DNA from: Isoetes taiwanensis
Taxonomy: Eukaryota > Streptophyta > Lycopodiopsida > Isoetales > Isoetaceae
Assembly: GCA_021234155.1 (NCBI GenBank)
Contig: JAJEKV010000062.1
Location: 1,904,602 to 1,968,601, forward strand
Direction: 5' to 3'
Length of the DNA stretch: 64,000 nt
Position 1 is the first letter of the stretch. Each line of letters opens with the position of its first letter. A program made the translations under genes and the position numbers. This document shows positions 28,490 to 58,299 of the stretch, one piece after another. Under the pieces are notes generated by a model. It did not search any database. It had not been told where the DNA came from and saw only the letters and a program-made list of their open reading frames with translations.

Positions 28490-30190
28490 GTCTGTCTGCG
28501 TCGGTTCCCGCCCCAAAGCGTGCAAACATTGCTCACAACCTCGAGTCCCCTCATCACTACTCCGGGGAGCCTTATCGGGCTCAACCTTCTCAACCGTACT
28601 TTCATACCCCCTGAACATGCCTACATCCATCATTCTTCGGGCCATCGCCTCTTCCTTCACAACCATCATCTCCCCGGGTGGGCAAGGATATCCACCCGTC
28701 TCTTTTTGCGCCTACCCGGGAATATCCTTTCCCTCACGTTTCCCAGCGCCCTTCACATTTTACAACCTTACGGATCTCAAAACCAATGCTCCGGCCACTT
28801 GGTTTCTCAAACGCGGTCACCCCTTCGCCGGGGTCCGCCGGGCACCATGCCACATCCAACTCAACCTCAATATCCTCACTATCTTTGCCTTCCCGGTCCC
28901 GGCCAAGCACTTTCACATCTACCTTTCGGACTCGAAACCGACTTATCCCACCTTTGGCAACACGAAAGGCAAACCCTTAGACCAAAGTGCTCGGGCCCAC
29001 ATGGAAGAATTTGAGGCTCTAGCTGTCCTAAATGGTCATGCGCAACCTCAACTGAAATTCCACATCTTTTCCACCACCTGGCGTGGCTCTCCTCATCAAT
29101 GGCTCATGTCCAACAAAAGCCATTGGAAACAAGACTGGTCGAAATGAGAACCGCTTTTACGTCTCATTATGGGACCACGGATGATGATCAACTTCATCTC
29201 AAGCAACTCAATGAACTTCAACAAGAGCCCCGGAGTCTCCGCCTCGGGGATTTTATGGATCGACTTCACATTACGCTAAGTAAGCTCAAGGAGTACCCCA
29301 CATGAGCCGATTTTGGTCCGTTTCTCCAAGGACTTCCTCCGCCTATTCGACTCATGATGAATACTGCGTCCCAAGACTTTGGAGCAGGCTATCGACCTTG
29401 TCAATCACTCGATCCAATGTTTCCTCCCGAGGCATGGCTCTTCAAGAGCTCCCGTTCATTCCACTCATCATGGTTCCACGCAGGCGGTCGTTCAGCCTCA
29501 ACACGCTAATCCACAGCCAAGTCCGGATCCGGTGCCATATTTGCAAATACCAAGGCCATTTGGCAAATGAGTGCAACTCCACCAATGGGCCGCCTCATTG
29601 CAAGCGATGCAACATGTGCAATCATGCCACGGAAGAGTGCACTCGCACTCATCCCACACCGTTCAAGCAACAAAATGGTTTATCAAGTGCAAACCACACC
29701 TCAAAGAACAATCGCACTATCGGTACCACCACCGGGTGCAAACCCACTCAACTCTATAGAACAGAGCAACAGCGGGGATCCAACCCACGTACTCCTTTTG
29801 ATCCTTCTAAAGGTCGGTGTTATCACCGTCAAGAATGGGGTCATACCACCACCGGCGTGTCCTCAACTTCCACAAGTTGGTAAACTTCTTGGCACAAATC
29901 AGACCACCTCGGTCCGCCTCACGGCTTACCAACTCTGGATTGCTAATGGCAAACAAGGCCCGAGACCAGTTCTTAAGAAGCCACCAAGAGCGCCTCAGCA
30001 ATCCCGCTATCAACCAGCTCTAGCAAATCAACCTCAGCTGGATCAACAAGCACAAGAGGAAATTTTTCAGGCACTTAATCCTCCAGTCCAGCCGTCAAAT
30101 TGGGTTGGTTTAGTTTCACGCTGCACCAAAGCATCACGTCCCTTGACCATTATTCGAATGGCACGCGAACCCGCCTTTTGCGGTTGACAC
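28490..30190 (+). pseudogene. Element 2 gag (fossil)
   Basis: Gag region with zinc-knuckle sequences CHICKYQGHLANEC and CNMCNHATEECTRTH and a Gln/Pro-rich stretch, collinear with element 1 gag. Broken. Confidence 0.8.
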
Positions 30191-30219
30191 CATTCCTCAT
30201 GAGGACGAAAAAAGGTTCA

Positions 30220-31170
30220 CTTTGCACCGACTTGAGAAGCTCATGCCACATGTCATGCCAAAAAGTTCGCCAAAGCATTTTGAACCTCATGCAAGGCTGC
30301 TTGAAGGCCGCACATTGGCAAATGTTCATGCCACCACCGAGCTCAACAAAGACAAGATCCACCTTCCACATCTCAACCTCAACGCTCTCGGGCGTATCCC
30401 AATATTGCTGCAGAGGTTGACTTACTCAAAGAAGTTGCTGCTTCACTACCACGCACTCCAAAGACCGGTGGAACCAAAGCAGATCCTTTTCTCATGTGCC
30501 TCTAGAACTCCAAGAGGAGCTAGCCAAGATCAAAATTCCTTTAAGCTTGGCAACCATTTTGAAACTCCGTCACGCTCTCAAGGACCGGTTACCACTTCAA
30601 ACTGTTTTAGTTGGGGCCGTGGCTACCTCTACACCCACGGTCCATGCCACGGTGGGTAATCGACAAGTCAACCATGTTCAAATAGATGGAGGTAGCCTTG
30701 ATCAATCTCATCACGGATAAACTCCGCAAAACAAATGGGCATCACACAACTCTTTCGTGCCCCATATGACATCAAGTTGGCTAATGGCCATATCACGCGA
30801 CCTCAAGGCGTCACACCTCTTCTTCACATCAACATAGGTGATCTCCGCTTCCCCATGGAATTTGGAGTTTGGAAAGTTTGGCGAAGATCCGGTGACTATG
30901 AAATGTTGGTGTGAGACCTTTTCTCCCGCCGGGCCAAGAGTATCCATTCTTGGGCCACGGACCCAGTTAGTCATCAACGATGGTCATCTCAATGCCACCA
31001 TGGACTTGCAAGCGGTCCGGGATCATTTACATTTGAACATCACGGAACCCTCTCTCGGAACCGCAGTCTCGAAGAAGCTCGGGAATATTTATCAAGTTCG
31101 GAGCTCCACTGCGAAGTGCGCCTCGTCATCCTACCCGAATATCGCGATCCTTGAGAGAAATGACTCTTGA
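30220..31170 (+). pseudogene. Element 2 protease region (fossil)
   Basis: Collinear with the protease segment of element 1; NRQVNHVQIDGGS marks the retropepsin active-site strand. Broken. Confidence 0.7.
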
Positions 31171-31699
31171 TCGGGACCCAGCCATGGGGCGCTTTGCTTG
31201 ACCCTTACGGCTCCTTGCAATCGAATCCAACGTGTTGATCGCTTTTCGGATGCCGAACCTCACGCAACTCTGTTGATGTACACGCCGTCATGAAGCAACC
31301 TCTGGCTTTGGATGAAACCGAAAGCAACCCCTCTTTTCACCCACGTTAAAGTGACACGCATCCGGTTATGCTCCAACCTCTGCACACATTGTCCGGATAA
31401 TCAAGTAATACCCCATATTCGGACTCGAAGTCGAGATCGTGGGCGTGGGCAACAATCAACTGTCGCAAGCATTGCCAAATCTTCCGCCCCTTATCGTAAC
31501 GGGGCCGTCAAGCCGTTCAAAAAAATTCAAACACATTTTCGCACGGAGTTACAGAGATCTTCGGGAATCAACAAAAGCTTGGGGAACTCACCATTCCTAC
31601 CAAATCGATGCACGACCGGTTTAGCAAGCGGCGATCTACCGGCTCAACCCTAATTACCGCGGATCGCGTCAAGGCGTAAAATTGACAAACTCCTTGCTG

Positions 31700-32940
31700 C
31701 GGGGTTTGATCTATGAGGTCAAACATTCTCGAATGGGTGAGCCCCATCGTCATTGCCCTCAAACACAATGGTAAGATCCGGCGTCGTGTGGACTCTAGGA
31801 AACTCAATCCGGGCCACGGGCGTGATCATTTTCCACTTCCCTTCACGCACTGGGTCCGGAAGAGGTGGTCGGACATGAGATGTACTCCTTCATGGATGGT
31901 TTTTTACGGCTACAACGATCTCAATCAAAGAATCTGATCAACTCAAGACTACTTTCACCACCCCATGGGGTACTTTTGCCTACAAGGTGGTTCCTTTTGG
32001 ATTATCCAACTCTCCATCAACGTTTCAACGCATCATGCTCTCAGTTTTTCATGATTTCATGAAGGAAAATCCCTTCTTGCAAATTTTTCAAGATGACTTC
32101 TCTGCCCTACTGGGTTCCATGGGTGACCATTTGGATAAATTGGAACTCGTCTTCCAGAAATGTGATGAGTCCGGCATTAGTCTCAATCCTGAGAAATGCA
32201 CCTTTTGCGTCACCTCCGGTGTTCTGTTAGGCCATGTTGTCAGAAGCAAAGCAGGTATCACCACAGATCCTGCCAAAATCGGTTGTGTGCTCAAGGCTCA
32301 AGCACCCAGCCAATATCAAGGAGACACTCTTTCCCCGGTAAGGTCAATTATTACTCCACCTTCATACGGACTAGCAGCCATTGCGGATCCCATTCATAAA
32401 CTCACGGGTGGCGAATCCACCGGGCTTGGAATTCCTGTGCGGATCTTCGCTTCCAACGGTGAAGCTTTTGCTTACTCGCACCGGTTCTTGTTCCTCCTCA
32501 ATGGGACAAGCCCTTTCATGTTCATGTAGATGTCGGCGTTTGCTATTGGAGCTGTTCTTTCTCAAGAATATGATGCGCTGCCCGACAAACCAAATCGCTA
32601 CGCCGCCCGAAAACTCAATTCAATTGGCGCAAACTATTCCCGCCACGGGCGTGAAGCTTTGGGTCTCATTTTACGTGTCCAACGCTTGGCCACTACCTTT
32701 TGGGCAGTCAAATCAAGTTCTTTGTGGACCACCAAGCACTCCTTTATTTGATCAACAAGTCCACGCCCACGGGCGCATTGCTCGTTGGGTCCTTCTTCTC
32801 CAAGAATTTGCCCTTTTGAAATTGTTCATAAGGCCGGCCAAATCTCATGTCGTCCCCGGATTATCTTTCACGATCCACACGGATGATCCCTCAACCGGAG
32901 TCTCGAGACGCCTTTCACGATGCTCGGCTCTTTTTTAGTC
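31700..32940 (+). pseudogene. Element 2 reverse transcriptase and RNase H (fossil)
   Basis: The reverse transcriptase is recognised from MVPFGLSNSPSTFQR, FLQIFQDDFSAL and SLNPEKCTFCVTSGVLLGHV, and the RNase H region follows to about 32,940. Ty3/gypsy. Broken. Confidence 0.9.
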
Positions 32941-33059
32941 ACCGGCAACACCACATTGGTTCCATGATTTTGTGATACCTCCTCGAGGTGCTCTTCCACC
33001 GGAAGACAAGGGCGCTCTCTCGCCAAGCGACAATCCGCCGCCATCAATTTCTCAGAGAG

Positions 33060-34230
33060 GTCCGTGACTACACCATGGTTGCGGGACATCTCTACAAAAA
33101 GGGTATGGGACACCATCCTTCGATATTTTGTGTTCTACCTCATGAAGTTCGATACCACCGAGAAGCTCATCAAGGGCTAGGTGGTGGTCATTTTCATGGT
33201 GACACCACGCACGCAAAATCCCTTCTAGCCGGGTATTATTGGCCCACGCTCTTCAAAGATGCTCACGCCCCACGCCCGTGTGGACGCTTGCCGGGCGGGT
33301 GGGACGCCCTACGGCCCGTGGCGCTCTTCCCTTGCCGGCCGGTCGCCCACTTCCCTTCAAAGCAAATGGGGAATGGACTTTGTGGGACCTATAGATCCTC
33401 CTGGCGGCACACCCGCGTCGTTACATTCGGTTCTCACCGACCACGCTACCAAATGGGGGAAGCTTGTGCACTTCCGCACAACAACTGCGGCAACCACGAC
33501 TAGGGTCCTCTATCAACAAATTATCACGCGATTGACCGCCCCGCTGAGCTGGTCGGTGACCGTGGTGTCCATTTCATCAATCATACTATCAAGGAGGCCG
33601 GATTATCTCCCGATACACATCATCACAAGAGCACACCTTACTATCCTCAAGGTAATGGTTTTGGTAAAGCACGAACAAAACTTCGGTCACCATTCTCAAG
33701 AAAATTTGTGACGCTTCCCGCCTGGTGGCGGACAAAACTTCCCTCTTGTTCTTTGGGCCTACAATACTTGTTTCAAGATTGCTACCGGTCACACTCCTTT
33801 TAAATTGGTTTATGGTGAGGGAAGCTCTCATGCCGTTTGAATACATCCTTCCAACCCTCCGTTTTTTCAACGGCGGCTCACGCTCATAATCCACCTGCCA
33901 CTCAAAGAAAGGGTCTATCAATTAGAACAGTTGGATGAACTTCAAAGGGATGCTTATATTCGGTGTTCTTCATGGACAGCGATTTGCAAAAATCTTTACA
34001 TGACAAAAGCGTCGAAGACAAAAACATTCAAAGAAGGCGATTTGGTTCTTCTTTATGATTCCGTGTACAAAAATTTTTCGGGTAAACTCAAGTTTCGTTG
34101 GCTTGGCCCTTATCAAATTGTTCAAGTGGTTAGAGACAAAGCGTTTTCCAATGGCGAGTTAGATGGCACTCCATTACCTACATTGGTTAATGGTTTTCGT
34201 CTCAAAAAACATTTCATCACACGATGTTAA
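33060..34230 (+). pseudogene. Element 2 integrase (fossil)
   Basis: Zinc-binding GGGHFHGDTTHAK-type segment, core start WGMDFVGPIDPPGG, and C-terminal FSGKLKFRWLGPYQIVQVV. Broken. Confidence 0.87.
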
Positions 34231-34689
34231 AAAATCAACAAAGCGAATACAGTCAAGAAGCAAACACCGCAAACAAAGTGACTAGCAAGGCGGCATATTA
34301 TATTATAGTGGAGATTCTTTTACAAAATGTGGGCGCTGACCCGGCTATTTCGCTTATGGGCACCGCCATATATAAAAACGGGCTCGAGCCCTATCTACTA
34401 AGTCCTAAGAGGAAAAACCCTCTACTCGGGGTTGGGGAGAGGTGATGCGGAGGAGATGGTAGAGGTTCTTTCGGGATCCCAGCGAAGGTGCAGAACCACC
34501 TCCATCCTGTTGGTCTTGGTCGGGATGTTCAGCCATCCGGCACACCACCGTCCATTCGAATACCCGCGGTTGTGGCGGCGCCGAAGGTCGAACAATTCAT
34601 CTTGCGGGTAATCCACTCGGCGGTTAGGTGGGCATAGTGCGTCCCTCGTTCAAACCGGCGGCAGCCATCTTTGGCGCCATCGGATGCCT

Positions 34690-37600
34690 TCGTTTGCTCC
34701 GGTTTGTCTTATATAATGGCCGAGGAACTCCTTGTCGGCGTGGACCAATCAGAAATTAGCCAGCGTGTTTTGCAATGCAAGGCTCTTTCTAAGCGAGAAT
34801 CTTTTCTCGCCTTAAATCTAGCTGGGGTACTCTCGACACATTCGTTTTCATGATATCCACCGAAGTTGCTGTATTAAATGCCCTTGCTTCTTTTCATACC
34901 GTCAACAATTAATATGTGTCCTTTGGCCACTGTCACATCAATCCTTCTCTCCGTCTCATCCTCACCGTTCATTGCTTCTCCCTTACGATTTTGAGGGAAT
35001 GACCAAATTTTTGCCTCTCAATACACTCCTTGGCATCTTTTCGACACACGGCACCATCAGCGGCTCGGTTTCACTCTCTTCATACCTCTTAAGCCTCCGG
35101 TTGTAAGCCCTAAAACCTTTTAGTTCCTCTGCGCCTTTGTCCTCCAGGTGCTTGGCTTTCGTCCTCGCCTTTGAATCACTCTTCGTTTACGCAAATCGTT
35201 ACCATGGCTGCCCCAAGATTTTCTACACTTCAAACTCTTGCTCCCAAGGATCAGGGCTCTTTTTGCGTCGTATCCTTCTTGAATACCCACTTAAAGGTGA
35301 AGCCCTTGTTGGCCCAAATAAAAAGTCATTTGAGCGACAAAAGCTTTTCTGAATTCTCTCAAATGGAACTTAGGCTCCCAATCGACCAGCTGCGCCCGGT
35401 TCATCGCCAATATCGTTAACGACCATGAGGATACACCAATTGTGGTTGATGGCACCACCATTTCACTGACTCAACATTTGATCTCGAGGTATTTCATATT
35501 CCCTTGCAAACCCCTTGTTTATCATGGTGCGCCATCACGGGATCTAGATGTCACGAGTTTGGTGCACCTCCTTATCATGCCAATGTGCATCGTCGACCAA
35601 TATCGACAAGCCTCACGAAACCTTTGTTAAGTTTACGTGGCGCCAGAAGTTCCTTGGGTATTCTATCAAGAACACCCATATCAATAAGCCCTTCTATAAC
35701 ATGGCCATCTTTGCTACACACTCCAACCGCCACATAGATTGGCCCCAATTGATGTTCTATCGTCTTCTTCAAGAAGTGGACCGCCTTCCGGTGCCACTTC
35801 CATTTTAAAGTTTACGTGGGAGGCCACCTTCAAGCCCTCATCCGTCATTACTTCCCTCCCACACCACAAAATTCTCATAATTCCACTCGAGAGGTCCCTT
35901 CCAGCGACTAACCGAAGGCGGGGCACTTCCGCCCTTCTTCCTTGGTCATGTCCAAAGTCCGCAGACACCCATGTCACTTTGTCTCCTCCTCGCTGCACCA
36001 TCCGGTTCACACCATCTTTCCCAAACATCACAAACGGGCAACGGCCGGCTCCACCACCACAACACCCTCGTCGGTTGTTGTATCATTATCGGCCGGGATG
36101 CTCAAGCTGCTTTGCTCTCAAGTTACAAGAATCCCAAGACGCTCTTATGGAGAGGGGTTCAACGGGCACTAGAGGCCTCGATGCGGTACACCGGGACCTT
36201 CAAGGCACGCCCTTTGCCCAAGTTGCAACTTTGGAGGCCAAACTTCAAGACAAACCGGGCTCTCTTACAGGCTCATACCAGATCTCAAAAGTGCACCGGG
36301 GATCAAGTCGGCCAACTTGCAGGATCAGCGGGCTCGGCTCAATCAGAAATTCAGACTTTATTGGAGCACAACAAGTCCAAAGCGACTCTCACGGGTACCA
36401 AGGGCTAGATATTGCCAAGCTCAGCGCCTTGTACTCGAACTTTGTGAAAATTTCAGCACTCAAGTTCAAAACCTTACGAGCGGGACGCTCAAATTGCCTC
36501 CTTGGCGGCTCGGCTTTCTACACGGACCTCTCGGCTCACCTCTCTTCAAGATCGCTTACGAGGTGCGAGAAGCGAAGATACTTGATGGCCGGAGATTGCG
36601 TGCCGTCTCAACACTCGGGGAAATCCTCCTCCCAGTCAACACTTTCGAAAGCGGGTCCGTGACCAATCCACTTCTTGCTAGAAAAGGACAACCCGGGATG
36701 CGTGATCTTGAACAATAGGCTGCGACAAGCTATTGATCTGGCGATGAGGCTCAAGCAAAACTTGACGCCCATACCGCCATTATTAACGAGAATGCTGTTG
36801 ACTTCCCGGTTCCTTCACCGCTATCGATTATGTGGTTGCTGCCGCCACCTCTTCCTTCGAGAAGTGGCATCGCGGCGGATGGACTGTGGATATTCCCCCG
36901 AAACACCTTTGCCATTTTTCTTGGTTGGCGAACTCTCCATTGAAGACAAAGGGGTTGTCTTTGTGCCCTTGTGGTCTTTGATCTCATACACCGTGCCGAT
37001 CCGGACTTTATCACCTTCAGAGTTGTTCAGCCCATGGCTTACATATTTCATGATTTCTATCCGGGTGATACGGGAACACCGGAAATGGGCCACGCCCGAC
37101 TCTTTCGGGGTGACCCCAGCGTGCAATGGTTGCCGGGATAACAATCCATATCTTGCGAATCATGCTCGGACCCAAACTCTTCATCGAGTACATGCACGAA
37201 GTTTGCCAATCATTTATCTCTCGGGCAAGCGGAAGCGGCTAAATGAATAAGGAAGTATCTAGGACATCAGAGGATCTTCCCTATGCACAAATTTATATCA
37301 CGACACCTCGCAGGTTATAATCAATTACGGGCTCGTTGGATAGCAAGGCGGTCCCCACGGGATGGGATAGCCCTCCCTGTCAACTCTCAACTCTGCTTCT
37401 CTTTGGGATCGTTGGTGTCAAGCTCTTGATCCGGATCTTGTCGATCAATTCGGGGAGACCTTTCAAGAACCCGCCCACGGGCATGGTTCCTTCTCCCTAT
37501 GCTTCCAGGCGTACCTCCGCCCGGGGTTCTGACTTTCGATTGGCGCCTCCCTTTTGGACCAAGGTCATGGATGGTCATGCGGATGGACTCCACCTCGGAT

Positions 37601-38163
37601 CTCGCCGGATCTCCGTTGGGATCCACGTTTTGTTAAGCCGCTCACATTGGGAAGAAGGTGCCACTCACGGATACCACCGCAATTGGATCTATATTGCTAA
37701 TGGCGTGGTTGGCAAACGGCGGATGCGCTTCATGGTCTTGACACCTTCTTGCGGCATACCACCACCTCCCACGATCCCCGATCCATCTTCAGCGCGGTTT
37801 TTTGTGCTGCTCTTAAATGCATTTTGTTCGGCTCCTTAAATCGGCGGCCCCATTTTTCTTTGCAATCCGAATGCGATTAATCGGTGCCTTTGGCCTCCGG
37901 ACACGCCTCCTCATGGAATGTCGGTACATTTCTTCGGCGCCCATGCGCCCTTGAAGACATGGTGCGATCCGCTTTCTTATTGATGCGAGATCCGCCCTTG
38001 GCCACAACACTCCTCCACGCTCTTCAAACACGCCGGGATCTCATTGCCCATTACCATAATGGTGCGTCCTCACTCGCGTGAGGATCACTTTTCAGACAGA
38101 TGGCTTCCGCCCTCGAGAAACCCTTCCTCCTTTCTTCACTCCGAGTGTCGGTTGGTGGGGGAG
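34690..38163 (+). other. Element 2: extra same-sense region between integrase and 3' LTR
   Basis: About 3.5 kb homologous to 8,702-12,060 of element 1. Sense frames such as MAAPRFSTLQTLAPKDQGSF lie here and have counterparts in the sister copy. Position matches the extra frame of Athila-like elements; identity unknown. Broken. Confidence 0.6.
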
Positions 38164-38747
38164 TGTTAGTCCCTGCGGCCTCACGGTACGGGACTATTCA
38201 TGCATACGACATGAGACCAGGTCAAGCTCAAGGATCCTCGGTCAGCCGGGTCAGCCATCAAAGGCTCGTGAGGAAGACCAAGCCCGGCGGACCACGCAAA
38301 TCAAAGCCTATCAAGAAGCGGCCACAGACAAGTGGGACGGCCCGTCCCGTAGCGTCGGCGTCGGCATGATTCTAGGCACTTAAAGAGGCACCGCCAACAT
38401 TCACCTGCAAATCAGGCCTCCTTTCAGGAGTGGGCACCGAGATCGGTCGAGTGTCTATATTGGGCCCAAGGCCATTGTACTATATATATGACTAGAGCTC
38501 GCACATGAGCTCTAGATGAGTTTTGAGTCTTGTCTCCTTTCAGTTTTTCTCTCTATTGCGAGAGCTCATGTATGTTCATCATTGATATCAAGGAAGCTTA
38601 TCATTTTCCTCTCAATTGTTTTGTTTTCTTCTTCTTCTTCTCTTCTTGCAAATCCCGCGTGACATAGTCCCCCGGACTCTCCTGTAAAATCCACGGGTCC
38701 TCACAGAGGGCTGTCTTCCAGGAGTTCCCGAACCCAGACCCCAAACA
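38164..38747 (+). repeat. 3' LTR of element 2
   Basis: About 584 bp, starting TGTTAGTCCC and ending CCCCAAACA; followed by the target duplication TAGAA at 38,748-38,752. Confidence 0.93.
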
Positions 38748-40148: not shown

Positions 40149-42876
40149 TTACAGCTTACTCCTTTGAGATTGAAGCCGTGTTTGTAGCAACTTTGGAATC
40201 ATAGTCTTTGCCTGATCCATTTTGTCGTGAATGATACATACATAGTCTCGAGGATGCCTGTGGGATAACAGTCTCCATGACCAGTACTGGGTGCGACATG
40301 ATTGCTGCTCTAGTCTATGTGCCCTTCTCTGATCATGCAATATTCTCCTTTCAGCCTCATCCTTGGTCTTCAACAGCTTCGTGCGGATAACCTCGCAAGT
40401 GTCACACTTCGAGAATGCAACCTTCTTAGCAATACTGACGTCCTTGAAGCTACGTCTCCACGTCCTATGAAATCCTGTCGGAGATACCTTCTTGCCTGTG
40501 AGTGCCATCACTTCAGCGTTGACCTCTTCGAGAATGCATGTCTTCGTAAACATAGCAGGCAACTTCCTCACGTTTTCTCGAATCCCATCATCATTCCTCC
40601 TGCTACGGTGGGTAAGGATTCACAATTTTCCTTCACAAACATGGAAAAAACAGCCTCTGAGGCCAAGGTCGCCGCACGTGCTTTCATCGTGCCTGAATTG
40701 CCATGCTCAGCCTTTCGCGCACCGGAGCGGAATTCTGCCTTCCACTTGAGATACCCCGACTTTGAAATCCCAAGACCAAGGTACCAAGCTCTCTCACAGA
40801 CACTGACGCCTTGCAAGACTAGCCGATGGACCCTTCTACCCTTCATATTGTTGCCTAACATATCATACACAAAAGTGGTCCTGTCACTCGATTTCATGGC
40901 GAAGAAATCCTTTTGCATGTTTATAGCTTGATCCCTACTGAATTTCTCACAACATCTCTGTTTGCAACACATGGTCTTCCTATACCTCAAGATGGCTTCA
41001 TTGGTTGTTAGCCGATCTATCTTTGGAGGCTTTGATGCTTTCTTTGGCTGACGAGAATGGAAGGTGTATTTACGCTTCTCGTACTACGGATGCTTCTCAA
41101 GCTCCGAGCTGCCCTGGCTCGACGTCGTATCATGCTGTTCCACTGGCGCCGCACTTAAAATCTCCGACACCTTCACTCCACAAACCCTAACTAGATCATT
41201 ATTTCACCTTAAAAGCATGCCCGCTTTAGGTACTGTCAAACATGCGACGACAGGAAGTTCATCTACGGGAGGGGGAAAGCCTTCCGAATGAACACTCCTA
41301 CGGTCTTCATACCCAAAAGCGGTCACATCTTGCATCGTGCGGACCCGGTGAAGGATATAAATCCCCATTTGCGGGGATGGCGACACACAAAGTGAAAAAT
41401 TTCGCAGTCAGTCTCTAGTAGTGTGTACCTAGTTAGCGACATAGTGTCTCTGTTGCTTCCCACTCGCTGTCTTTTGGATGCTGATGGCACGTCCACGACA
41501 TTGGAGTCGTGAACATCACTTTCCCTCCAGAGAATGAAGGTAGGGCCTCACCTAAGGTTCTTGCATCTGGCGTAGGCCAACAGAGAACATGATGCCCCTC
41601 AAACACGGCTAGAACACCAACACTCACAACTCCATCTGGGATGTCTTTAAAATGGCATCAATCCCTGGCTCCTATGGCTCCTTTGGCAACTACCCGACCG
41701 TCTTTGAATAGGTACACCTCCTGCACAAAAGAAATGAATCAGTTTTAGAGCAAAGTTGTAGCAGATTGTCCTTAGCAGGTGAAATTGGGCGGGCGCCCAA
41801 TTTGCTCCCTGTTGTAATGGTCCTTAGCAGGTGAATTTGTTCACATGCCCAATTTCCTCCCTGCTAAAGTCGTCCCTGGCAGTTGAAATTGGGTGGGCGC
41901 CCAATTTGCTCCCTGTTGTAGTGGTCCTCAACGGATCAAATTGGGCACCCGCCCAATTTGTTCCCAGTTGTAGTCATCCTTGGCAGGTGAAATTGGACAC
42001 CCGCCCAATTTGCTCCTTGCTGTAGTCGTCCCTGGCAATTGAAGTCGGGCGCCCAATTTGCTCCCTGTTGTAGTGGTCTTCAGGAGTTGAATTTGGGCAC
42101 CCACCCAATTTGCTCCCTATAGTGATGGTCTTTAGCAGTCGAAATTGGGCACTCGCCCAATTTGTTCCCTGTTGCAGTGTTCCTTAGCAGATGAAATTGG
42201 GCGGGCGCCCAATTTGCTCCTTGTTGTAGTGGTCCTTAGCAGTTGTAATTGGGCACCCGCCCAATTTGCTCTCTGTTGCAGTGTTCCTTAGAAGGTGAAA
42301 TTGGGCAGGTGCCCAATTTGCTCCTTGTTGTAGTGGTCTTTAGCAGTTCTAATTGGGCACCCGCCCAATTTGCTCTCTGTTGCAGTGTTCCTTAGCAGGT
42401 GAAATTGGGCAGGCGCCCAATTTGCTCCTTGTTGTAGTGGTCTTTAGCAGTTCTAATTGGGCACCCGCCCAATTTGCCAGTACAGGAGGTCTATCTGCCC
42501 ATACATAGTTACTCAGGAATCAAACTAGGCACCCAACCTACTTGGCCCTGCACATCTACCTGGGTATGAAATTGAGCAAGGAACCCGATTTGCTAACCCA
42601 GCTGGAATTTAATTTGGCCATTCGCATCTACCTGGAATGTCTAATTGGGTTGTAACCAGGATAGCTTCTATGCTACCCCAGCTAGAATCTAGACTACATC
42701 AGTTATGTTGGGGGGACCGCACATGCATCTCTCAAATTTCTATTTATTTCTCAAATCTTCTCATCAATAATGTTCTATACCAATCCAGGCATCTTAATAT
42801 CAGCGCATGCAACCCACAGTGGCAAGAATAAACGTATAAACCAAAAGAAATTTACCTTTGGTGAAGCGCACGCCAT
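40149..42876 (-). pseudogene. Element B leftward transposase-like gene, broken
   Basis: ATG at 42,876 opens a 7-codon exon (MACASPK) ending AAAG|GTAAAT at 42,856. Intron 1 (41,721-42,855) holds palindrome array 1; exon 2 starts after TGTGCAG at 41,720 in the same phase and reads EVYLFKDGRVVAKGAIGARD, a TGA in place of one codon (41,658-41,660), then CHFKDIPDGVVSVGVLAVF to 41,433. This recalls the DUF8039-type domain of plant CACTA proteins (weak). From about 41,115 to 40,149 lies a transposase-like protein: KTMCCKQRCCEKF, VSVCERAWYLGLGISKSGYL, KKVAFSKCDTCEVIRTKL and CIIHDKMDQAKTMIPKL. That order (Cys pair, 'VC..aw...lGIS', 'C..C', then D.MDQ.K) is seen in a broad uncharacterised eukaryotic DDE-like family. 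One frame change lies near 40,570. The part with the remaining catalytic residues is absent after 40,149. Confidence 0.55.
41776..42480. repeat. Palindrome array 1: 14 units, about 52 bp each
   Basis: Fourteen copies of the inverted repeat AAATTGGGC / 4-base spacer / GCCCAATTT begin at 41,782, 41,834, 41,885, 41,938, 41,991 and so on to 42,454. Filler is 'tgctccctgttgtagtggtc'-like. Spacers alternate between GGGC and ACCC types while the arms stay conserved. Each arm contains CCAAT in one orientation (NF-Y-like, by sequence only). The array lies wholly within intron 1 of the leftward gene. Confidence 0.95.
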
Positions 42877-42959
42877 CTGCCCAAGAATGTGAGAGAACGA
42901 AATGGCTTAGCCACTCTGCTTCCTTGAGAGTAATTCAAAATTCAAATCTCCCACGAGAG

Positions 42960-43130
42960 TTTGATTGGGCGGGCGGGCGCGTAATATAAATTCAAATTCA
43001 AATTCGGACGGGCCCGTAATTCAAATTGGGGCGGGACCGTAATTTTAAATTCAAAATCGGGGGGGCGGCCCGTAATATAAATTTAAAATTGGGCGGGCCC
43101 CGTGAGAATTCCAAATTTAAAATTTAAATT
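42960..43130. repeat. GC/AT-alternating repeats in the divergent intergenic region
   Basis: Four or five imperfect copies of a GGGCGGGC/CCGTAAT block followed by ATAAATTCAAATT-like sequence lie here. They share the GGGCGGGC core with the palindrome arrays but lack complete arms. They sit 90-250 bp upstream of the leftward ATG, where a promoter should be. Confidence 0.6.
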
Positions 43131-43659
43131 CCACGACGTCTATATTAATTTAAAAATCCGCATTTAATGTTTCGGGCACATTTATTGCAAAAGTCTATTT
43201 TTATTGTTATTTGTTTCGGTCTATATTTAGTTAAAAAGGTCTATGTTTAAGGCTCTTCATTTGCATGGCTGCCACTTGTCATTCACCTGTTCAATCTCAC
43301 CGCCCATTCCTTTTCGCTTGCTCATTCATTCCTTTCCGACAACCGTTGCCTGTAGTCTTATTCTCTGAGGATCACGATACGCCTATCGTCTTCAAAGTGA
43401 TTGCGCCTCCCATCATATCTTCTAAGCGCTGTCTCTGAGCATCCAAGCGCCACTGCTTTTCATGGAACATCGACCCTCGAAGGCAGGAAATGGTACTGTT
43501 TTTTTGTTCAGCTTTAGTTTATTATATTACTGCAGGCGATAAGCCACTGGCCATTTGCATTCTTGCCCTAAATGAAATTCTCAGCTATCCTACATCCTTC
43601 ATTTTTGGTTTCTATGCTTCTAAACCCTCTGGCGCGCACCTCTGGCCGCTTTGTTGTTA

Positions 43660-43860
43660 CTAAGTACCTCAGAAGTTGTGTCCTCTGCACCAAAAACCCT
43701 CGGCCCATTGCATCTTTCTAAGTACCTCAGAGGCTGTGTCCTCTGCACCAAATAACCCTCTGGCCCATTGCATCTTTCTAAGTACCTCAGAAGCTGTGTC
43801 CTCTGCACCAAATAACCCTCTGGCGCATCTTTTTAAGTACCACAGAAGCTGTTTCCATGC
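43660..43860. repeat. Four-copy tandem repeat, about 56-60 bp
   Basis: Units begin AAGTACCTCAGAAGCTGTGT at about 43,661, 43,718, 43,778 and 43,834. The filler then grades into that of palindrome array 2. Confidence 0.85.
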
Positions 43861-43869
43861 ATCCATACA

Positions 43870-44400
43870 CCCTCTGCGGGTGCCGAAAAGCTGTTTCCAT
43901 GCTTCTAAATGTCCTTTGGGGTGGCAAATTGCGCGGGCGCCCAATTTGGGACCCTTTTGCCTCTCTCCGTTCTTCCAAACCTCCTCCGGTGCGGCAAATT
44001 GGGGGGACGCCCAATTTGTCAAACTCGCCTCCGTTCCTGCTTCCATTGCACTCCTCTGGGGTGGCAAATCGGGCGGGCTCCCAATTTGGCACCCTCTTGC
44101 CTATTTCCCTGCTTCCAAATGTCCTCTGGGGTGGCAAATTGGGTGGACGCCCAATTTGATGTCCTCTTGCCACATTCCGTGCTTCCAAACCTCCTCCGGT
44201 GGGGCAAATCGGGCGGGCGCCCAATTTGTCACCCTCTTGCCTCTATTCCTGCTTCCGAATGTCCTCTGGGTGGGGCAAATTGGGCGCACGCCCAATTTGA
44301 TCTCCTCTTGCCTCATTCCGTGTCTCCAAACCTCCTCTGGTGGGGCAAATTGGGCGGGCGCCCAATTTCGCACCCTTTTGCCTCTTTTCGTGCTTTCAAA
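43870..44400. repeat. Palindrome array 2: 7 units, about 70 bp each
   Basis: Copies of the AAATTGGGC/GCCCAATTT inverted repeat begin at 43,926, 43,997, 44,066, 44,136, 44,206, 44,277 and 44,347. The filler ('tgcttccaaacctcctccgg') is unrelated to arrays 1 and 3. The array ends about 115 bp before the acceptor TTATGCAG at 44,472-44,479 that precedes the rightward ATG, so it is probably in a 5'-UTR intron; the donor was not pinned down. Confidence 0.93.
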
Positions 44401-44484
44401 CCCCCTATAGGGGGCATCCCTTACCTTGTTTTAATGCTTGCATACACTACTAATGGGATTAATGAATGATGTTATGCAGCACCC

Positions 44485-46089
44485 ATGGCCAGAACTAAGC
44501 AAACTGCACGTGTACCTGGAGCTGGCCCTCCGTTGGCACAGGCATTTGCTGCAGCAAAGGAAGCAGATTCAAGCATTCAGTTCAATGGTATTGAAGTCGT
44601 CCCAGAGCTAATGACTACTGTAGCCGATAAGTTTTCATGGTGCATAGAGGTAGGCCCAATCCACCCTGGCTCTAGCACAAATCATCTCAAGGATCTGTGC
44701 TTGTACTTTGCTGAGCCCGGGACTCGGAGGACACAGAATGCTGGCATAGCAATTGACATGACTGTGAGCACTGAGGTTGCCAACGAGATAGATGTTGTCG
44801 TGGAAGACGTGCTTGATAAGTCATTTCAAGGATACAGGTTACCCTTTGAAACTTACAATCCTCAGCTAATGCATGCAAGCATCACTGAGGCTCCACATTC
44901 GTCTCAAGCCAAGGGCTGGGTCTTGGCTTCTTATGAAAGCCTTGAGAGATCTGGACTGACTAAACAGGGAGATATTATTGATGGATTTAATACAGTTAGA
45001 CAGTGTATACTCAATCACAAACAAAATCGATCAAAGGCCCTTTATACAGAATATCATGGAAAGAGCCAACCAAAGGTCTATGACACGGCGTGGTTGAAGT
45101 CACGTTATGGACAAGCAAGAAAGAGTGATGGACAGAAAGGCACAGAGAAGCCCACAGCCGTGTCATCAGAAAAATTAAATGTTCCTAAGAAGAAAAGATC
45201 AGAAACACCAACGCCAAAACTAATTCTTGGTGGTATGGGAAGAACATCACGTAGCCGGGACTTGAGCATTCGATCACAGGAGGTATCTGAGCAGTCCCCA
45301 CTAGAAAAGCAACTAAAAAAACGAAGTCGGCACGAGGCAATAGCTTCCTCGTCTAAGAAAAGAAGAGACTCGACTCCACCATATACATCAGGTGGATCCT
45401 ATGGGGGGAGTGAGATTGAGACAGGCTTACAGGAAGATGACAGACGAATTGTTAAGTGCTCCACATCTGGCGGGGCCTTGACCCAGGAAAGCAGACGTGA
45501 GCTGTCACAAAGTGCATTGATCAACATTAAACACAGAGAAAGGATTTATCCTCTTGGAGTTGAATTCGAAATAGAGGTGGATATATTTAAAATGCATCAA
45601 GCACCTGCAAATATGACCTGCAGGGTCATCAGTCCTAAACATGTAGATACCCTATATGAATCATTTATTAATGTCCAGATGCATCCACCTTGTGCGGATG
45701 TTGTACCCTTTGATCCAGACACTGGGCATGCACTCAAGTGGAAGAAGGCCAGCGATTTAGACAATGCAGAATTCTGGATTATAAATGGCAATCACACTAC
45801 TGCAGTTGCCCAAATTCTTGTTAATCAGGCCTTGAAATGGCCAGCAGAAAGGGCACATTTGAAAGATCTTATCTTTTTCTTCTACGCTAAAAGAAAATGT
45901 CGCGTGCTAGCAGGGAATCTCACTTTAACTGAATATGTGAAGGTCAGCCAGGAGAGCAACGACATCACCAAGGATACCATTCATCAGGATGTCTACTTCG
46001 AGCAAATACAGCAGCTAAGGAACCAATGGGCATTGTATGGAAAGCCGAAGAAAGGAAAGCGTGGACTATCCCAAGATAGGGCATATTTA
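44485..46089 (+). CDS. Histone H3-tail mimic, NLS and candidate ParB-like domain, exon 1 (535 codons)
   Basis: The ATG has strong context (CACCCATGG) just after an acceptor-like TTATGCAG. The N-terminus MARTKQTAR is identical to histone H3 through R8; the next residue is Val instead of K9, and the H3 match ends. Basic nuclear-localisation signals follow at residues 234-238 (PKKKR) and about 278-296 (KKRSRHEAIASSSKKRR). From about residue 345 to 475 lies a compact domain: EFEIEVDIF, CRVISPKHVDTLYESF, ADVVPFDPDTG and FWIINGNHTTAVAQIL (near 434). That strand-helix layout ending in 'NGNH..A.A' resembles the ParB/Srx-like N-terminal domain ('i.p..v..L..Si......P..v....' then 'dG.HR..A'), a family call by eye only. 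A basic segment (GKPKKGKRGLSQDRAYL) ends the exon at TTA|GTAAGT. The frame is intact throughout, unlike nearby relics. Confidence 0.75.
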
Positions 46090-46779
46090 GTAAGTCACTT
46101 CTATTTGTTCATGCAGTATGTTTTCCTCATCAAATTGGGCGGGCGCCCAATTTGGGATGCCCCCATGTGCACTCAGCATGTTAGGCTGCATCTCCTTGGC
46201 TATCAAATTGGGCGGGCGCCCAATTTGGGATGCCCCCATGTCCACTCAGCAGGTTAGGCTGAATCTCCTTGGCTATCAAATTGGGCGGGCGCCCAATTTG
46301 GGATGCCCACATGTTCACTCAGCACGTTAGGCTGCATCTCCTTGGCTATCAAATTGGGCGGGCGCCCAATTTGGGATGCCCCCCATATCCACTCTCAAAG
46401 ACGTTAGTGCAGATCTCCTTGGCTATCAAATTGGGGGGCGCCCAATCTGGGATGCCCCCCATGTCCACTCAGCACGTTAGGCTGCATCTCCTTGGCTATC
46501 AAATTGGGTGGGCGCCCAATTTGGGATGCCCACATGTTCACTCAGCACGTTAGTCTGCATCTCCTTGGCTATCAAATTGGGCGGGCGCCCAATTTGGGAT
46601 GCCCACATCTTCACTCAGCACGTTAGTCTGCATCTCCTTGGCTATCAAATTGGGCGGGCGCCCAATTTGGGATGCCCCTCATGTGCATTGCCCCCCCATG
46701 TGCATTGCATGTTAGCTTGTGCATTGCTCAATTTTGAGACCATATATTTCAGATATGCTAAGTTCACTATGTTGTGCAG
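46090..46779 (+). other. Intron 1 of the H3-mimic gene, filled by palindrome array 3
   Basis: Donor GTAAGT at 46,090 and acceptor TTGTGCAG ending at 46,779, both in phase 0, join AYL to DWLAIAKQ. Reading on from the donor gives only translated repeat (from 46,118 to a stop at 46,255), so splicing is the better model. Confidence 0.8.
46125..46690. repeat. Palindrome array 3: 8 units, 73 bp each
   Basis: Inverted repeats begin at 46,132, 46,205, 46,278, 46,351, 46,428, 46,501, 46,574 and 46,647. Filler is 'gcatctccttggctatc' and 'gggatgccc'. It is the most regular of the three arrays, so probably the youngest. Confidence 0.95.
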
Positions 46780-47620
46780 GATTGGCTCGCTATAGCGAAG
46801 CAGACTTTGAATAAACTTAGCATGCGAGATTACGATTACTTCGTGTATTTGGATGACGAAACTTGGAATATGTGCCTGCAAGTGGCTCAGTTGTTCTATG
46901 AAGATCAACTAAAAGATGAATTAGGTGAAACGATAGTGGTTAAGGACCGGCTAAGAATGTTCACGAATAACAAGTGCCGACCTTTAAAGTCCATGCATCC
47001 AATGGATTTGCAAAGACTCTTGACAGAGATCATGACAGGCGCCACGTACATCAAGACCACCAAAAATTACACTGGAAGGCGTGTCATGAAAATCCGTGCG
47101 GGGGAACTGAAGAAGATTGGCACTAAAATTTGATGTTAATGTTCGCCAACAGTGTAGGTGATTGGGTTGATAGCCGCAAGGAGGCAGAAAAGCTTAACCT
47201 TCCAAAGGCTCTTATCCTAAAGGTTAATGAATATCTGCGTGGGCCGGTGGAAGAGGGATCTAAATCATTCAAATGCTACCGTGTCAGTCCTCTGGGGATG
47301 TCAGTTGATGTGGTTAATACCTCTGCTCGGTTTATCGGATGTGATTTCAGAAATATCAGGAAATGGAGCATGGAAGAATACCAGAAGTTTTTGGACCAGA
47401 TCAGTGTGCTAACGGACCAGCAACTATATTGGATCACGATCTTTATCGCTCCAGATCATTTGAGTGAATGCTTGTCCGCCATGAAGACTATAGACGGAGG
47501 TGGTAGTGTATGGGTGGGTGCGTACCAGGATCCAAAAAAGAGAAACCCTTCCTCTCGTGTTCGTGCGCGGACCCTTTGTTACGGTAATATGCGTGGCGGA
47601 GACCAGCGGTACCACCGCTA
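46780..47620 (+). CDS. H3-mimic gene, exon 2 region (one frame change)
   Basis: Exon 2 reads DWLAIAKQTLNKLSMRDYDY and ends in a TGA at 47,131. An overlapping frame at 47,130-47,627 continues with coding-like sequence: FANSVGDWVDSRKEAEKLNL, SFKCYRVSPLGMSVDVV, QQLYWITIFIAPDHLSECL and GGSVWVGAYQDPKKRN. The change of frame near 47,133 is either a one-base indel or an unrecognised short intron. The middle portion has the feel of a helical protein with a methyltransferase-like 'D.V....' strand, but no catalytic DPPY-type motif is clear. An in-frame TGA follows RYHRYA, and the frame then stays open as LNLCFNDADHPQEYSKF to NMV at about 47,754. So the 3' half is decayed or carries errors. Confidence 0.55.
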
Positions 47621-47825
47621 TGCATGACTGAATCTATGCTTCAACGACGCGGACCATCCTCAAGAGTATTCGAAGTTTCCGCAGCACTTGAAAGAAGTGG
47701 AGGACATAGAGAAGAACCTCCCCGATCATGAGTGCGCAGCAGATAACATGGTTTAAACTTGTGTCTCTGTCCATTTCTTTTCAATACCACTTATAACGGT
47801 TGTCTACTTTCCTTCATCATACTGG

Positions 47826-48062
47826 TTGTATCGGCCTTGGGGTGATAAGAGTGCGGGAGGAGGCGCGGGTGCTCTTTTGCCACATCAATTGGATTCCAGG
47901 ACATGCACATACCTAGTGCGGAAATTTATGCTAGAGGGTTGCAATGTCCTTGATTTCTTCTCCGGAGGATCGTTTAGCCGTGCAGCTTTGTGCGAAGGGT
48001 ATAAAGCTATCACGTGTTTGAATTTTTTGCCTTTGAGATTGATGAGAATATGCACCCCTTAA
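47826..48062 (+). CDS. SAM-methyltransferase-like segment of the H3-mimic gene
   Basis: This frame reads GGGAGALLPHQLDSRTCTYL, then NVLDFFSGGSFSRAALCEG. 'VLD.F.G.G....A....G' is motif I, the SAM-binding loop of class I DNA methyltransferases. Amino-methyltransferases of phages and bacteria often have it after the catalytic motif. In a neighbouring frame FEIDENMHPLN follows, which may be the motif II acid. The segment lies 70 bp after the previous open frame in the same orientation and probably is a later exon of the same gene. Catalytic motif IV was not identified, so substrate (adenine or cytosine, DNA or other) is open. This fold assignment is moderate. Confidence 0.5.
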   Translation: MYRPWGDKSAGGGAGALLPHQLDSRTCTYLVRKFMLEGCNVLDFFSGGSFSRAALCEGYKAITCLNFLPLRLMRICTP

Positions 48063-48144
48063 ACTTGTTGATTTTTATCAACTCAGTAATACTAGACGAG
48101 AGAAGAAATCTTGAGAGCTTGTGCTTTGCAAAAAATAGCGAGCT

Positions 48145-48750
48145 TTGCAAAAAAAAAAGAAAGCAAGTGGCTCCAAGGCATCGACAGTAGCGACCGCTAC
48201 TCCACCTCCTTGTCCATTCCCTGCACAAACAGTGCAGGAGTTGCAATCCACTCTCCGGATATCTAAGGATTTTGTCACAGACCATTTGAGAAAGGTGGGA
48301 GGTTTTGGAGCAAAGGACATGTCTTTCTTTAGAAAGAAGGAGAACATTAATGCATTGGCGGGCACTGCACTAGTGTGCACCCAAGATCTGGTCGAGGGTA
48401 GCTCGAAGTTTACGCAGCTATTCCTCAAGGACCAAGAACCTTCTGTTGTATTGGAGACACAAGAGGCTCAACCTGTGGACCCACTACCATCAGAGCAAGA
48501 AAAGGAGGTTGGGGTTGAGGTCGAAAAGGAGCTTGAGGTTGTGAAAGAGGCTGACGTTGAGGACGAGGAAGTTGAGAAGGGGGATGAGGTTCAAATGGAC
48601 GATGAGGTTGAGAATGAGGGTGTTGACGCTACACTAACCTCTGAAGAATTCCTGGCCCAGATGGAGCTCCTGAAGCAAGCGGCACAGGGAGGGGGAGAAC
48701 AAAGTGAATTTGGTCACACCTCTATGTCAGTTGAAGGGGTGGACCCTTAA
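48145..48750 (+). CDS. Basic-then-acidic C-terminal exon of the H3-mimic gene (likely)
   Basis: Open frame of about 200 codons: KKKKASGSKASTVATATPPP, then TLRISKDFVTDHLRKVGGF and ALVCTQDLVEGSSKFTQLF, then a run rich in Glu/Asp/Val (VEDEEVEKGDEVQMDDEVEN) ending SMSVEGVDP at 48,750. The acidic tail resembles histone-chaperone or activation-domain tails, but no domain is recognised. It has the same orientation as the preceding exons and lies before the single palindrome copy, so I take it as the last exon; it could be a separate small gene. Confidence 0.45.
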   Translation: MQKKKKASGSKASTVATATPPPCPFPAQTVQELQSTLRISKDFVTDHLRKVGGFGAKDMSFFRKKENINALAGTALVCTQDLVEGSSKFTQLFLKDQEPSVVLETQEAQPVDPLPSEQEKEVGVEVEKELEVVKEADVEDEEVEKGDEVQMDDEVENEGVDATLTSEEFLAQMELLKQAAQGGGEQSEFGHTSMSVEGVDP

Positions 48751-48790
48751 GTATTTTATGTTGTCATAGGATCTGTTTTGCAAGTTAGCG

Positions 48791-48825
48791 GGGTGCAAAT
48801 TGGGCGGGCGCCCAATTTTGCACCC
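48791..48825. repeat. Single extended palindrome copy, 3' of the gene
   Basis: The 22-bp core at 48,797-48,818 is extended on both sides: GGGTGC before it and (T)GCACCC after it, so the inverted repeat spans about 35 bp with one extra base. It is the only isolated copy found, about 40 bp after the likely stop codon. Confidence 0.9.
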
Positions 48826-49069
48826 TCTGTACCTCAATATATATGTTTTTAGAATCAAATTGAGTGAAATAACTTATGTACATGAACCAAGAAAATAAAG
48901 ACATGTCTAATATTTTTGGTATTACTTTCCAGTGTTTCTAATATTAATTAACCAACAGTTTGGTATTCTTTTAGATAAAGAAAATACATAGGTCTTACAG
49001 GACATGGCTAATTCAACACAAACATACTAGATAATAGACAACATATAATATAAAAGACCAAAGCTTCAG

Positions 49070-49567
49070 TCAATGCCCAGTTCAACCTGAATAAGATCCC
49101 CCAGATCGAACTCATCAATATGACTTCGACTGTACAGATCCAGCCAGTCATCCAAATCTTTGAGAGAGTGACCACTGCTGACGACGAGCTTGGTTACCAA
49201 ACCTTCGCATTGTCTTCTTTGTTTCTTGTAAAGCTTCTTAAACAGAGGTCGGAACGTGTTGTGTATCCCAAACGTCCTCCATTTTCAGCAGCCTTTTCAG
49301 TGCCTTTGCCCTGTAAATACATCATTTCAATGATATGAGGCAGTCCTCCAGCTCCACCCTACTGAGTTCTTCCTCGTCGCCATCCTTTACCAACCCATCC
49401 CCTTTGAGGAGCTTCGTGAGTTGGGCGCTAACTTCTCTCGTTCGGTTCTGGTTCATCTCGTTTTGTACCTCCACCTGCAACTGATTCGCATGGGCTAAGA
49501 TTGCCTCACTAATATGAGACTGCATTTCGGTGATGGTGTGTCCATGTCTGCGCCTCGTGTCGACCAT
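49070..49567 (-). pseudogene. Small acidic helical protein gene, element B third gene
   Basis: ATG at 49,567 opens MVDTRRRHGHTITEMQSHIS and continues LQVEVQNEMNQNRTREVSAQ and DEEELSRVELEDCLISLK to a stop near 49,322. A TTTACAG acceptor follows at about 49,315. Downstream pieces, KALKRLLKMEDVWDTQ then FRPLFKKLYKKQRRQCEGLV and DDWLDLYSRSHIDEFDLGDL, run to TGA at 49,070, with one frame change near 49,260. It is predicted helical and charged; no family is recognised. It ends 320 bp beyond the H3-mimic gene, tail to tail, so it may belong to the same mobile locus. Confidence 0.5.
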
Positions 49568-49917
49568 TCTGAGTGACCTGAAATGAATCTAAGAGACCGA
49601 ATGAAGGTGCTTGCACGAAGAGATAGAATGAAGAGACTGGATGAAGGGACCTCCTATCTCACCTACTTGCACGATTCCCGAAATTGTGGCTCATTTTAAT
49701 AACAAGAAATGACGAAATCTAAAAATTCGCATTGGGTTCCACAGCCTGCCATGTCAACTACCCGCACGGAATCCGAGTTTTTTTTTAACCTCAGCACAAA
49801 ATTATGTCACTATTTTCAACAAAATACCCTATATTCTTACGACTGGCGATCATTTGAGATATTTATGGACTTGTGGAAAGTCCATAAATAATGAAACTGT
49901 GCTTAACATAGAAATTC

Positions 49918-50019
49918 GGAAGGGTTTCTATGGAAATTAGGAAGGGTTTCCGAAAACCCTTCCTGGTTTTAATGAAAGCCGGAAGGGTTTCCACGGAAAA
50001 TGGGAAGGGTTTCCATGGA
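49918..50019. repeat. GGAAGGGTTTCC repeat cluster
   Basis: Four direct copies of GGAAGGGTTTCCatgga begin at 49,918, 49,941, 49,980 and 50,003, and one inverted copy lies at about 49,955-49,966. The cluster abuts the poly-T of the LINE and may mark the right edge of element B. Confidence 0.75.
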
Positions 50020-57347: not shown

Positions 57348-57605
57348 TTATGCAATTGATATTAGTTGGCTTAATGAAGAACTAGATGAAAAAATTGTAA
57401 CTAAGGAATTAGAACATGTATTTTTAGCCTTTTGACTGTTTAAAACTGTAGCAGACAAATCCACCTCCAATTCAGTTCCCTGAATATCTACTTCTACTAT
57501 GTTGACATGATCATGACATTTGACAGGATGTTGAACTTTCATACAATGCTCAACATTATCTTTCTGATGGCCAAATCTACTTTTACAACAGGGACTTTTG
57601 AGCAT
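57348..57605 (-). pseudogene. Second repeat of the HMA tail, other frame
   Basis: This frame reads SPCCKSRFGHQKDNVEHCMK, KVQHPVKCHDHVNIVEV and LEVDLSATVLNSQKA. It duplicates the end of the preceding exon (KVQHSVKCYDHANMV, MELDLPTTVLNAQKS), so the ATPase tail once had at least two tandem modules of about 55 residues with CC and His clusters. It is in a different frame from 57,583-58,115, separated by one frame change near 57,600. Confidence 0.7.
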
Positions 57606-58115
57606 TCAAAACCGTAGTAGGTAAGTCCAGCTCCATCACAGCTTCCTGAGTATCGACCATGTTAGCATGATCATAGCATTTGACAGAATGTTGAACTTTC
57701 ACACAATCTTTCTGCCCTTCTTGGTTCTCTCCGTTATGCCCCTTCACATGATTATGTCTATGGTCATCACATTGGTGCTCAGCCTGATTTTCATAAGTAG
57801 CATGATTATTGTGATTTCCATGCTTATGACCATCGTGATTCCCATCATGACCACCACACTGCGAATGGTCATGCTTACGCTTGTGACAGTCATGGGACTG
57901 GCAATGACTTGAGCTACAATTCTTTTGGTGTCTTCTTCGTAAAAGCAACATGCTATTAAAGGTGACAGCAATACATGTGCCAACATCTGCAAGAACTGCT
58001 GCCCATAGAGAAACATATCCCACAGTCGCAAGCACTATAATGATAATTTTTGTAATCAACGACAATGATACATTTTGAATGATTTTAGCACGGCACCTTG
58101 CCGCAAAAGCCAAAG
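57583..58115 (-). pseudogene. Zn/Cd P1B-ATPase (HMA2/3/4 type), last exon
   Basis: After an acceptor GTTGCAG at 58,116 the minus strand reads ALAFAARCRAKIIQNVSLSL, then VGYVSLWAAVLADVGTCIAV and FNSMLLLRR. This is the conserved end of plant heavy-metal ATPases (family pattern 'LAR.A..KI.ENV..S..TK', '..WAAVLADVGTCL.VI.NSMLLL'), the last two membrane helices. These pumps export Zn2+/Cd2+ using ATP, in the plasma membrane or tonoplast. The cytosolic tail follows, rich in His and Cys (HCQSHDCHKRKHDHSQCGG and HDGNHDGHKHGNHNN), a metal-binding region, and the frame ends at 57,583. No upstream ATPase exons (HMA domain, CPC, DKTG) were found to 59 kb, so this is probably a fragment. Confidence 0.82.
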
Positions 58116-58299
58116 CTGCAACTAGGAGGACATGTAGGAAAGGGAACTCTGGAAAGTATTGCAAGGACACCTAAATACCAGTACTGGCTCCTAATCCCAC
58201 TGCATAGGCTAGACATTTCCCACAAAATGTTGAATTGGGAGTATGGATGCCATTGTTGGCAAAGAAACAACAAACAAGGTTTAAAATGAAACACACTTA

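Follow-up and report, generated by a model that had tools for sequence, protein, structure and literature searches.

The window (the whole stretch of 64,000 nucleotides of Isoetes taiwanensis DNA that was analysed, in contig C1070) carries the codons for an exact histone H3 tail at 44485-44511 on the plus strand. These codons, ATGGCCAGAACTAAGCAAACTGCACGT, encode MARTKQTAR, which is identical to H3 from Met through R8, and V replaces K9. The sequence-only reading had described both the identity and the departure at K9, and both are borne out. The tail codons are the sole match in the window to a degenerate tail pattern with up to three mismatches allowed, while shuffled windows give a mean of 0.02 matches (one match in 2 of 100 shuffles). 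Across the genome (1.658 Gb in 1110 contigs were scanned) the pattern has 904 + 984 = 1,888 exact matches and a backwards-read control has 0, so that a chance origin of the tail is ruled out by the shuffles and by the genome count.

Exon 1 of the gene spans 44480..46089 on the plus strand, with the acceptor ttatgcag directly in front of it, the ATG at 44485, 535 codons and the donor gtaagt. The ATG had been credited with a strong context, which holds for the G at +4 but not for the C at -3. The exon had also been called intact; 44485-46089 is indeed stop-free and ends in the gtaagt donor, but the gene is broken further downstream. The exon 2 remnant (46780..47742, plus strand) is about 92 bases of coding sequence short near 47124 in comparison with other copies, which shifts the frame; an in-frame TGA follows at 47625, and the donor GT is gone from 47743. 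The exon 3 remnant (47818..48750, plus strand) contains an amino-methyltransferase-like motif, VLDFFSGGSFSRAALCEGYKA, and an acidic C-terminus; the acceptor is lost and the frame is broken near 48010. The losses around intron 2 are judged against four copies for the donor and against three copies showing an acceptor for the acceptor. None of the five copies read across all exons, the window copy included, is fully open, and current activity is therefore doubtful.

The MARTKQTAR gene belongs to a DNA transposon of high copy number, here called family C, and is its accessory gene; the transposase is of the DUF7869 type. With 81 of 4664 candidates scored, a genome search with exon 1 gives at least 94 matches, whose identity is 50-100%; the exon belongs to a dispersed repeat family, which rules out a single host gene. 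The window copy of the element extends over 40188..49904 as judged by blastn homology to two complete relatives, C301 and C1063; it is truncated on the left and decayed, and its longer non-array pieces are about 79-96% identical to these relatives. Both complete relatives have 25-bp terminal inverted repeats (92%) at their two ends, 11.6 and 12.2 kb apart, and they are flanked by candidate target-site duplications that differ in length, CCATT (5 bp) in one case and TTTT (4 bp) in the other. The window copy retains the right end only, at 49880..49904, which reads AAGCACAGTTTCATTATTTATGGAC on the minus strand. The transposase gene and the MARTKQTAR gene lie on opposite strands, and transcription of the latter is directed away from the former. 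A probable first transposase exon, read from the sequence, encodes MACASPK at 42856..42876 (minus strand) and is followed by a GT donor. The transposase body, recognized by homology to C1063, is decayed and truncated and occupies 40188..41720 (minus strand), the window copy being cut at 40188; over 40188-41865 it is 93.6% identical in DNA to C1063. The C1063 transposase is a 997-codon open frame, of which the first ~57 codons are intron read-through, and its C-terminal part contains DUF7869 (PF25273, E 2.7e-35). This domain is carried by 28 proteins among the 7993 database candidates scored. A third open frame of the element, at 49322..49567 on the minus strand, has 81 codons in the window and is a 173-codon open frame in C301. 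This small frame is present in two relatives, and lies at 9297-9815 of locus L089 on the strand-turned locus. Directly beyond the right end of the transposon, a cluster of GGAAGGGTTTCC repeats occupies 49918-50014 and holds 5 of the 9 matches in the window (at most one mismatch; 0.33 expected for the whole window).

Three tandem arrays with a common palindromic core, AATTGGGC(N4)GCCCAATT, lie inside the element. The first has a 52-bp unit (41768..42477) and is located in the transposase intron, the second has a 70-bp unit (43894..44406) and is located in the intron before the tail exon, and the third has a 73-bp unit (46129..46684) and is located in intron 1. A single copy of the palindromic motif (48792..48826) follows the accessory gene. 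All 46 AATTGGGC matches of the window fall within the element and 0 fall in its exons. Four relatives show 56, 54, 15 and 33 matches, none of them in exons (with approximated exon limits), and the background in 199 kb of 50 other loci is 10 matches compared with ~6 expected.

The product of the accessory gene is a non-histone protein, as the sequence-only reading had proposed. A tblastn search with the genome's own H3 (E <= 0.01) finds no H3 fold in the window, nor in L011 and L015 of family C, and on this ground a true H3 gene or a hidden H3 fold in the window gene was rejected. Searches of the profile libraries with the protein gave nothing that passed a curated cut-off, and no domain of VANC-like or DNA-binding type was found. 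The protein database yielded no homologue of exon 1 (lengths near 535, top candidates scored) and none of residues 350-945 of a read-through, and the viral contigs yielded none of exon 1 or exon 2. Single-sequence structure prediction for the window exon 1 is uninformative (pLDDT 35). A ParB-like domain proposed by eye in exon 1 ('FWIVNGNHTTA') had no profile support and was dropped. Exon 3 shows weak matches to PF01555 (E 0.018, on a joined piece with X and under the curated cut-off), to PF03602 (E 0.023, also under the curated cut-off) and to two PHROG DNA methyltransferases (E 0.006; PHROGs have no curated cut-off). With exons 2 and 3 joined, a single PHROG methylase is left at E 0.022. Where the catalytic (D/N/S)PP(Y/F/W) (DPPY) site is expected, the copies read GCDFR, the position being judged by eye.

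The tail is kept in many diverged copies of the family. The N-termini of 40 copies were picked by exon 1 homology, a non-random sample in which 30 align from residue 1 and 10 from residues 4-18. The tail is exact in 16 of them, has one change in 6 and two changes in 4, and is shifted, stopped or otherwise disrupted in 14. Many copies down to ~50% N-terminal identity keep the tail with synonymous changes, and the tail is therefore not the coincidence that homologues lacking it would have made it, despite the 14 disrupted copies. Several broken copies have one disrupted reading in common (GKN*TNRDACTG in L061 and L086), which is inherited or recurrent. The main set for pN/pS comprises 29 undisrupted N-termini, read from the downstream homology: 26 of the 40 copies, L011 and L015, which were added through the tail pattern itself, and the window. 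Over tail codons 2-9 of these related copies, pS is 0.71 and pN is 0.07, a ratio of 0.095. This is the lowest of 91 sliding eight-codon windows (rank 1; the copies are not independent); codons 10-30 give 0.54 and codons 31-100 give 0.40. Retaining the five disrupted copies with an alignment from residue 1, which makes 34 sequences, raises the tail ratio to 0.20 and moves it to rank 7 of 91. A stricter set of 23, for which an ATG and 95 stop-free codons were required, gives 0.10 for the tail and 0.50 and 0.36 for the next stretches. It consists of 27 of 43 sequences minus L071, L080, L082 and L083, which do not follow the reading frame of the family; before these four are dropped, the tail ratio is 0.28. 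All eight tail codons occur in synonymous forms in the stricter set, T6 in one copy only. ARTKQTAR has been under strong purifying selection within family C, with other residues at the K9 position: among the 29 undisrupted copies, residue 9 is V in 18, M in 5, L in 3, A in 2, I in 1 and K in 0.

The tail also stands at many other places in the genome. We inspected 48 tail loci, a non-random sample taken from the first 49 places listed of the 1,888. Canonical H3 accounts for 2 and family C for 2; a further 38 show an H3 fold after the tail, and in the last 6 no such fold is seen in the fetched stretch. By tblastn with the genome's own H3 (E <= 0.01), the fold is found in 36 of the 44 loci that are neither canonical nor family C, and in L008 it matches Pfam Histone at 6e-22. 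The genome's own H3 as query returns 15 full-length copies at 99-100% and, after a gap, 135 matches at 72-89%, mostly covering residues ~25-135, with open frames of up to 567 codons (150 scored of 9124 candidates; H3 genes with introns are matched only piecewise in this search). The H3-derived high-copy loci (L028 with L097 and L098 on contig C63, L008, L047 and 35 more of the 48 inspected) start with the exact tail and continue into a divergent H3 fold, often with some 250-300 charged residues between the two. Residue 9 in the 38 H3-fold loci is K in 26, I in 5, V in 4 and E, T and M in 1 each. A second frame (MATADFGRWYSAS... in L037) lies downstream of the H3-fold ORF in L013, L017, L028, L037 and L047, and two versions of it have no Pfam match.

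One of these loci, L028, demonstrably sits within a Ty3/gypsy-type LTR element. It is situated between 1.6 kb direct repeats that are 93.9% identical, and gag-, protease-, reverse-transcriptase- and chromodomain-like frames (domain names by reading) follow its H3-fold frame. Since family C and the L028 LTR element both carry the tail, two unrelated transposon classes have an H3 tail at an ORF start, the second class being represented by this single locus. The sequence ARTKQTARVP of family C also occurs in L013, L014 and L038, which hints at an exchange of the tail between element classes. Among the 44 loci that are neither canonical nor family C, an in-frame stop precedes any in-frame ATG in 37. 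A same-frame upstream ATG is present in the other 7, in 6 of them as the codon just before, and A or G stands at -3 of the tail ATG in 43. Because of these upstream stops and the -3 context, the tail looks like the true start in the 44 loci, unless introns intervene.

The start of the family C protein is less simple. A conserved short exon (43462..43492, plus strand) lies upstream of the 70-bp array in the window. It encodes MEHRPSKAGN plus one base, has the phase-1 donor GTACTG and joins in frame with MARTKQTAR through the acceptor at 44480. The mini-exons of L089-L092 read MENRPLKEGK, MEKRPLKEGK, MESRPTK and MASRPTTGGK, all with phase-1 GTA donors and in frame with MARTKQTAR. A scan of 17 copies finds an M[EAD].RP equivalent in 11 and none in L102, L106, L107, L108, L109 and L112; the scan required RP near the start, so the conservation of RP there is by construction. 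The 11 do not include the MWRP candidates of L101, L103 and L109, whose donors are GTG. The distance from the acceptor to the tail ATG is 5 or 8 nt, and the frame is kept in all 11 copies with a mini-exon. The first AUG may thus be located in the mini-exon, 9-13 residues before the tail Met, and in the window the mRNA probably has an AUG ahead of the tail ATG. The tail had been placed at the start of the protein. Its ATG does open exon 1, but a protein start there is not established, and the conserved in-frame mini-exon counts in part against it.

Because an in-frame mini-exon is present in 11 of 17 copies, the tail is possibly internal to the product of the first AUG. It would then belong to a protein started at M[EAD].RP and be conserved for nuclear import, DNA contact or enzyme recognition without a free N-terminus. 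We regard this as a real but rather doubtful possibility. The phase-1 junction and the spacing that keeps the frame are in its favor. However, an ATG was not required of the 29 undisrupted copies and is nevertheless found at codon 1 in all of them, which is unexpected inside a protein, and 42 of the 94 exon 1 matches (window included) start at query residue 1 and 0 at residue 2 or 3. The context of the two AUGs also speaks against an internal tail: position -3 of the upstream AUG is a pyrimidine in 10 of 11 copies, whereas that of the tail AUG is A or G in 10 of 17 and C or T in the remaining 7, which include the window subfamily. So does the start-like context of the tail in the 44 other loci (upstream stops in 37, A or G at -3 in 43). 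Exposure of ARTKQTAR at the N-terminus is plausible and would need leaky scanning or an internal promoter. A short isoform from the second AUG would expose Ala1, and a longer isoform with the M[EAD].RP exon would not.

The reading that we prefer, tentatively and with somewhat less than even confidence, is that the accessory protein is a VANC-like anti-silencing protein that presents an H3 tail without K9. By carrying the tail, the element may imitate chromatin and so deal with the host silencing machinery. The protein would recognize, probably in dimeric form, the palindromic arrays carried by its family, and this binding would bring to the element many H3 tails that lack a methylatable K9. 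Enzymes or readers of H3K4 would then be engaged by the ARTK segment. Once methylated, the tails could act as a platform that mimics active chromatin; alternatively, they could be decoys that draw off H3K4 demethylases and silencing factors that read K4me0. It is a bolder and rather unlikely extension that both element classes adopted the tail and build imitation chromatin as a general counter-defence, K4-readable in both and K9-unsilenceable in family C.

The comparison with VANC comes from the VANDAL transposons of Arabidopsis. Like family C, these DNA transposons encode an accessory protein next to their transposase and carry short motifs repeated in tandem within introns and upstream regions, with variation among copies (PMC5735166). 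The targets of VANC21 themselves form tandem arrays of a motif at such intronic and upstream places (PMC5735166). The two systems differ in the type of transposase, which is DUF7869 in family C. For the accessory protein, the family libraries searched gave no VANC-like match, and its binding to the motif is a prediction. A term search of the text of the VANC paper found neither H3K4 nor H3K9 (PMC5735166).

The same tail could work in the opposite direction, as the methyltransferase-like region could equally mean that silencing is recruited. By analogy with CHARM, the tail and this domain would recruit or activate host DNA methyltransferases at the element, as pro-silencing or self-restraint, which we consider improbable. 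CHARM joins an H3 tail to Dnmt3l in mammalian cells, and it resembles family C in that the protein bearing the H3 tail has a domain of methyltransferase type (PMC11875203). Its N-terminal H3 tail fusion can activate DNMT3A through the ADD domain (PMC11875203). The weak DNA-methylase signals of exon 3 (PF01555, PF03602 and the two PHROGs) fit such a role. However, both Pfam scores are under the curated cut-offs, joining exons 2 and 3 leaves one PHROG methylase at E 0.022, GCDFR stands where DPPY is expected (by eye), and an element would gain little from recruiting silencing. CHARM is engineered and uses a mammalian ADD mechanism (PMC11875203), whereas the domain in family C is only weakly methyltransferase-like. 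A role in targeting, in which the tail would hold the transposition complex to chromatin readers and thereby steer the choice of insertion sites, is similarly improbable: both element classes with the tail do insert into the genome, but the opposite-strand transposase frame of family C has no tail and the motif arrays suggest that binding takes place on the element. Least probable is an H3 start acquired by accident and carried without a role, as the 14 disrupted tails among 40 copies and the mostly truncated, RIP-inactivated H3 captured by hAT in Pseudocercospora fijiensis (PMC6710886) might suggest. Against it stand the 1,888 genome matches with 0 in the control and a tail pN/pS that, in undisrupted copies, is lower than anywhere else in the first ~100 codons, synonymous change being near saturation.

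Histone-tail mimics are familiar from the SNAG domain of SNAIL and from influenza NS1, in which a short H3-like segment is located on a non-histone protein. The family C tail differs from these in having nine H3-identical residues including Met, in being encoded by a transposon and in the replacement of K9. Capture of H3 by transposons is itself documented. The hAT transposons of Dothideomycete fungi have captured H3; the copies of P. fijiensis are mostly third-exon fragments inactivated by RIP, and P. tritici-repentis has putatively functional copies (PMC6710886). There, too, a DNA transposon amplifies H3-derived coding sequence (PMC6710886). Family C differs in carrying the tail alone, under purifying selection and on an unrelated protein, and of the H3-fold versions in Isoetes taiwanensis, one is shown to be in an LTR element. 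In the PMC literature searched, no plant transposon with an H3-tail protein was found. The word 'histone' is absent from the main text of a 2026 review on gene capture by plant transposons (PMC13317346).

How transposons survive under plant silencing is an open question, and few counter-defence proteins are known. An exact H3 tail that is kept while K9 is dropped, together with palindrome arrays that look like binding sites, makes a specific model of chromatin imitation testable. That two element classes contain H3-derived segments points to repeated origins of the trick or to its exchange.

Elsewhere in the window, two related gypsy-type elements (by reading) lie in inverted orientation at 8134-19119 and 27715-38747. 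They are 80.5% identical over 11 kb, and each has paired terminal repeats. Two further frames are perhaps host genes: one at 3688-4173 (plus strand) with weak tetratricopeptide matches, and a histidine-rich one at 57583-58170 (minus strand) with a weak match to a ZIP transporter.
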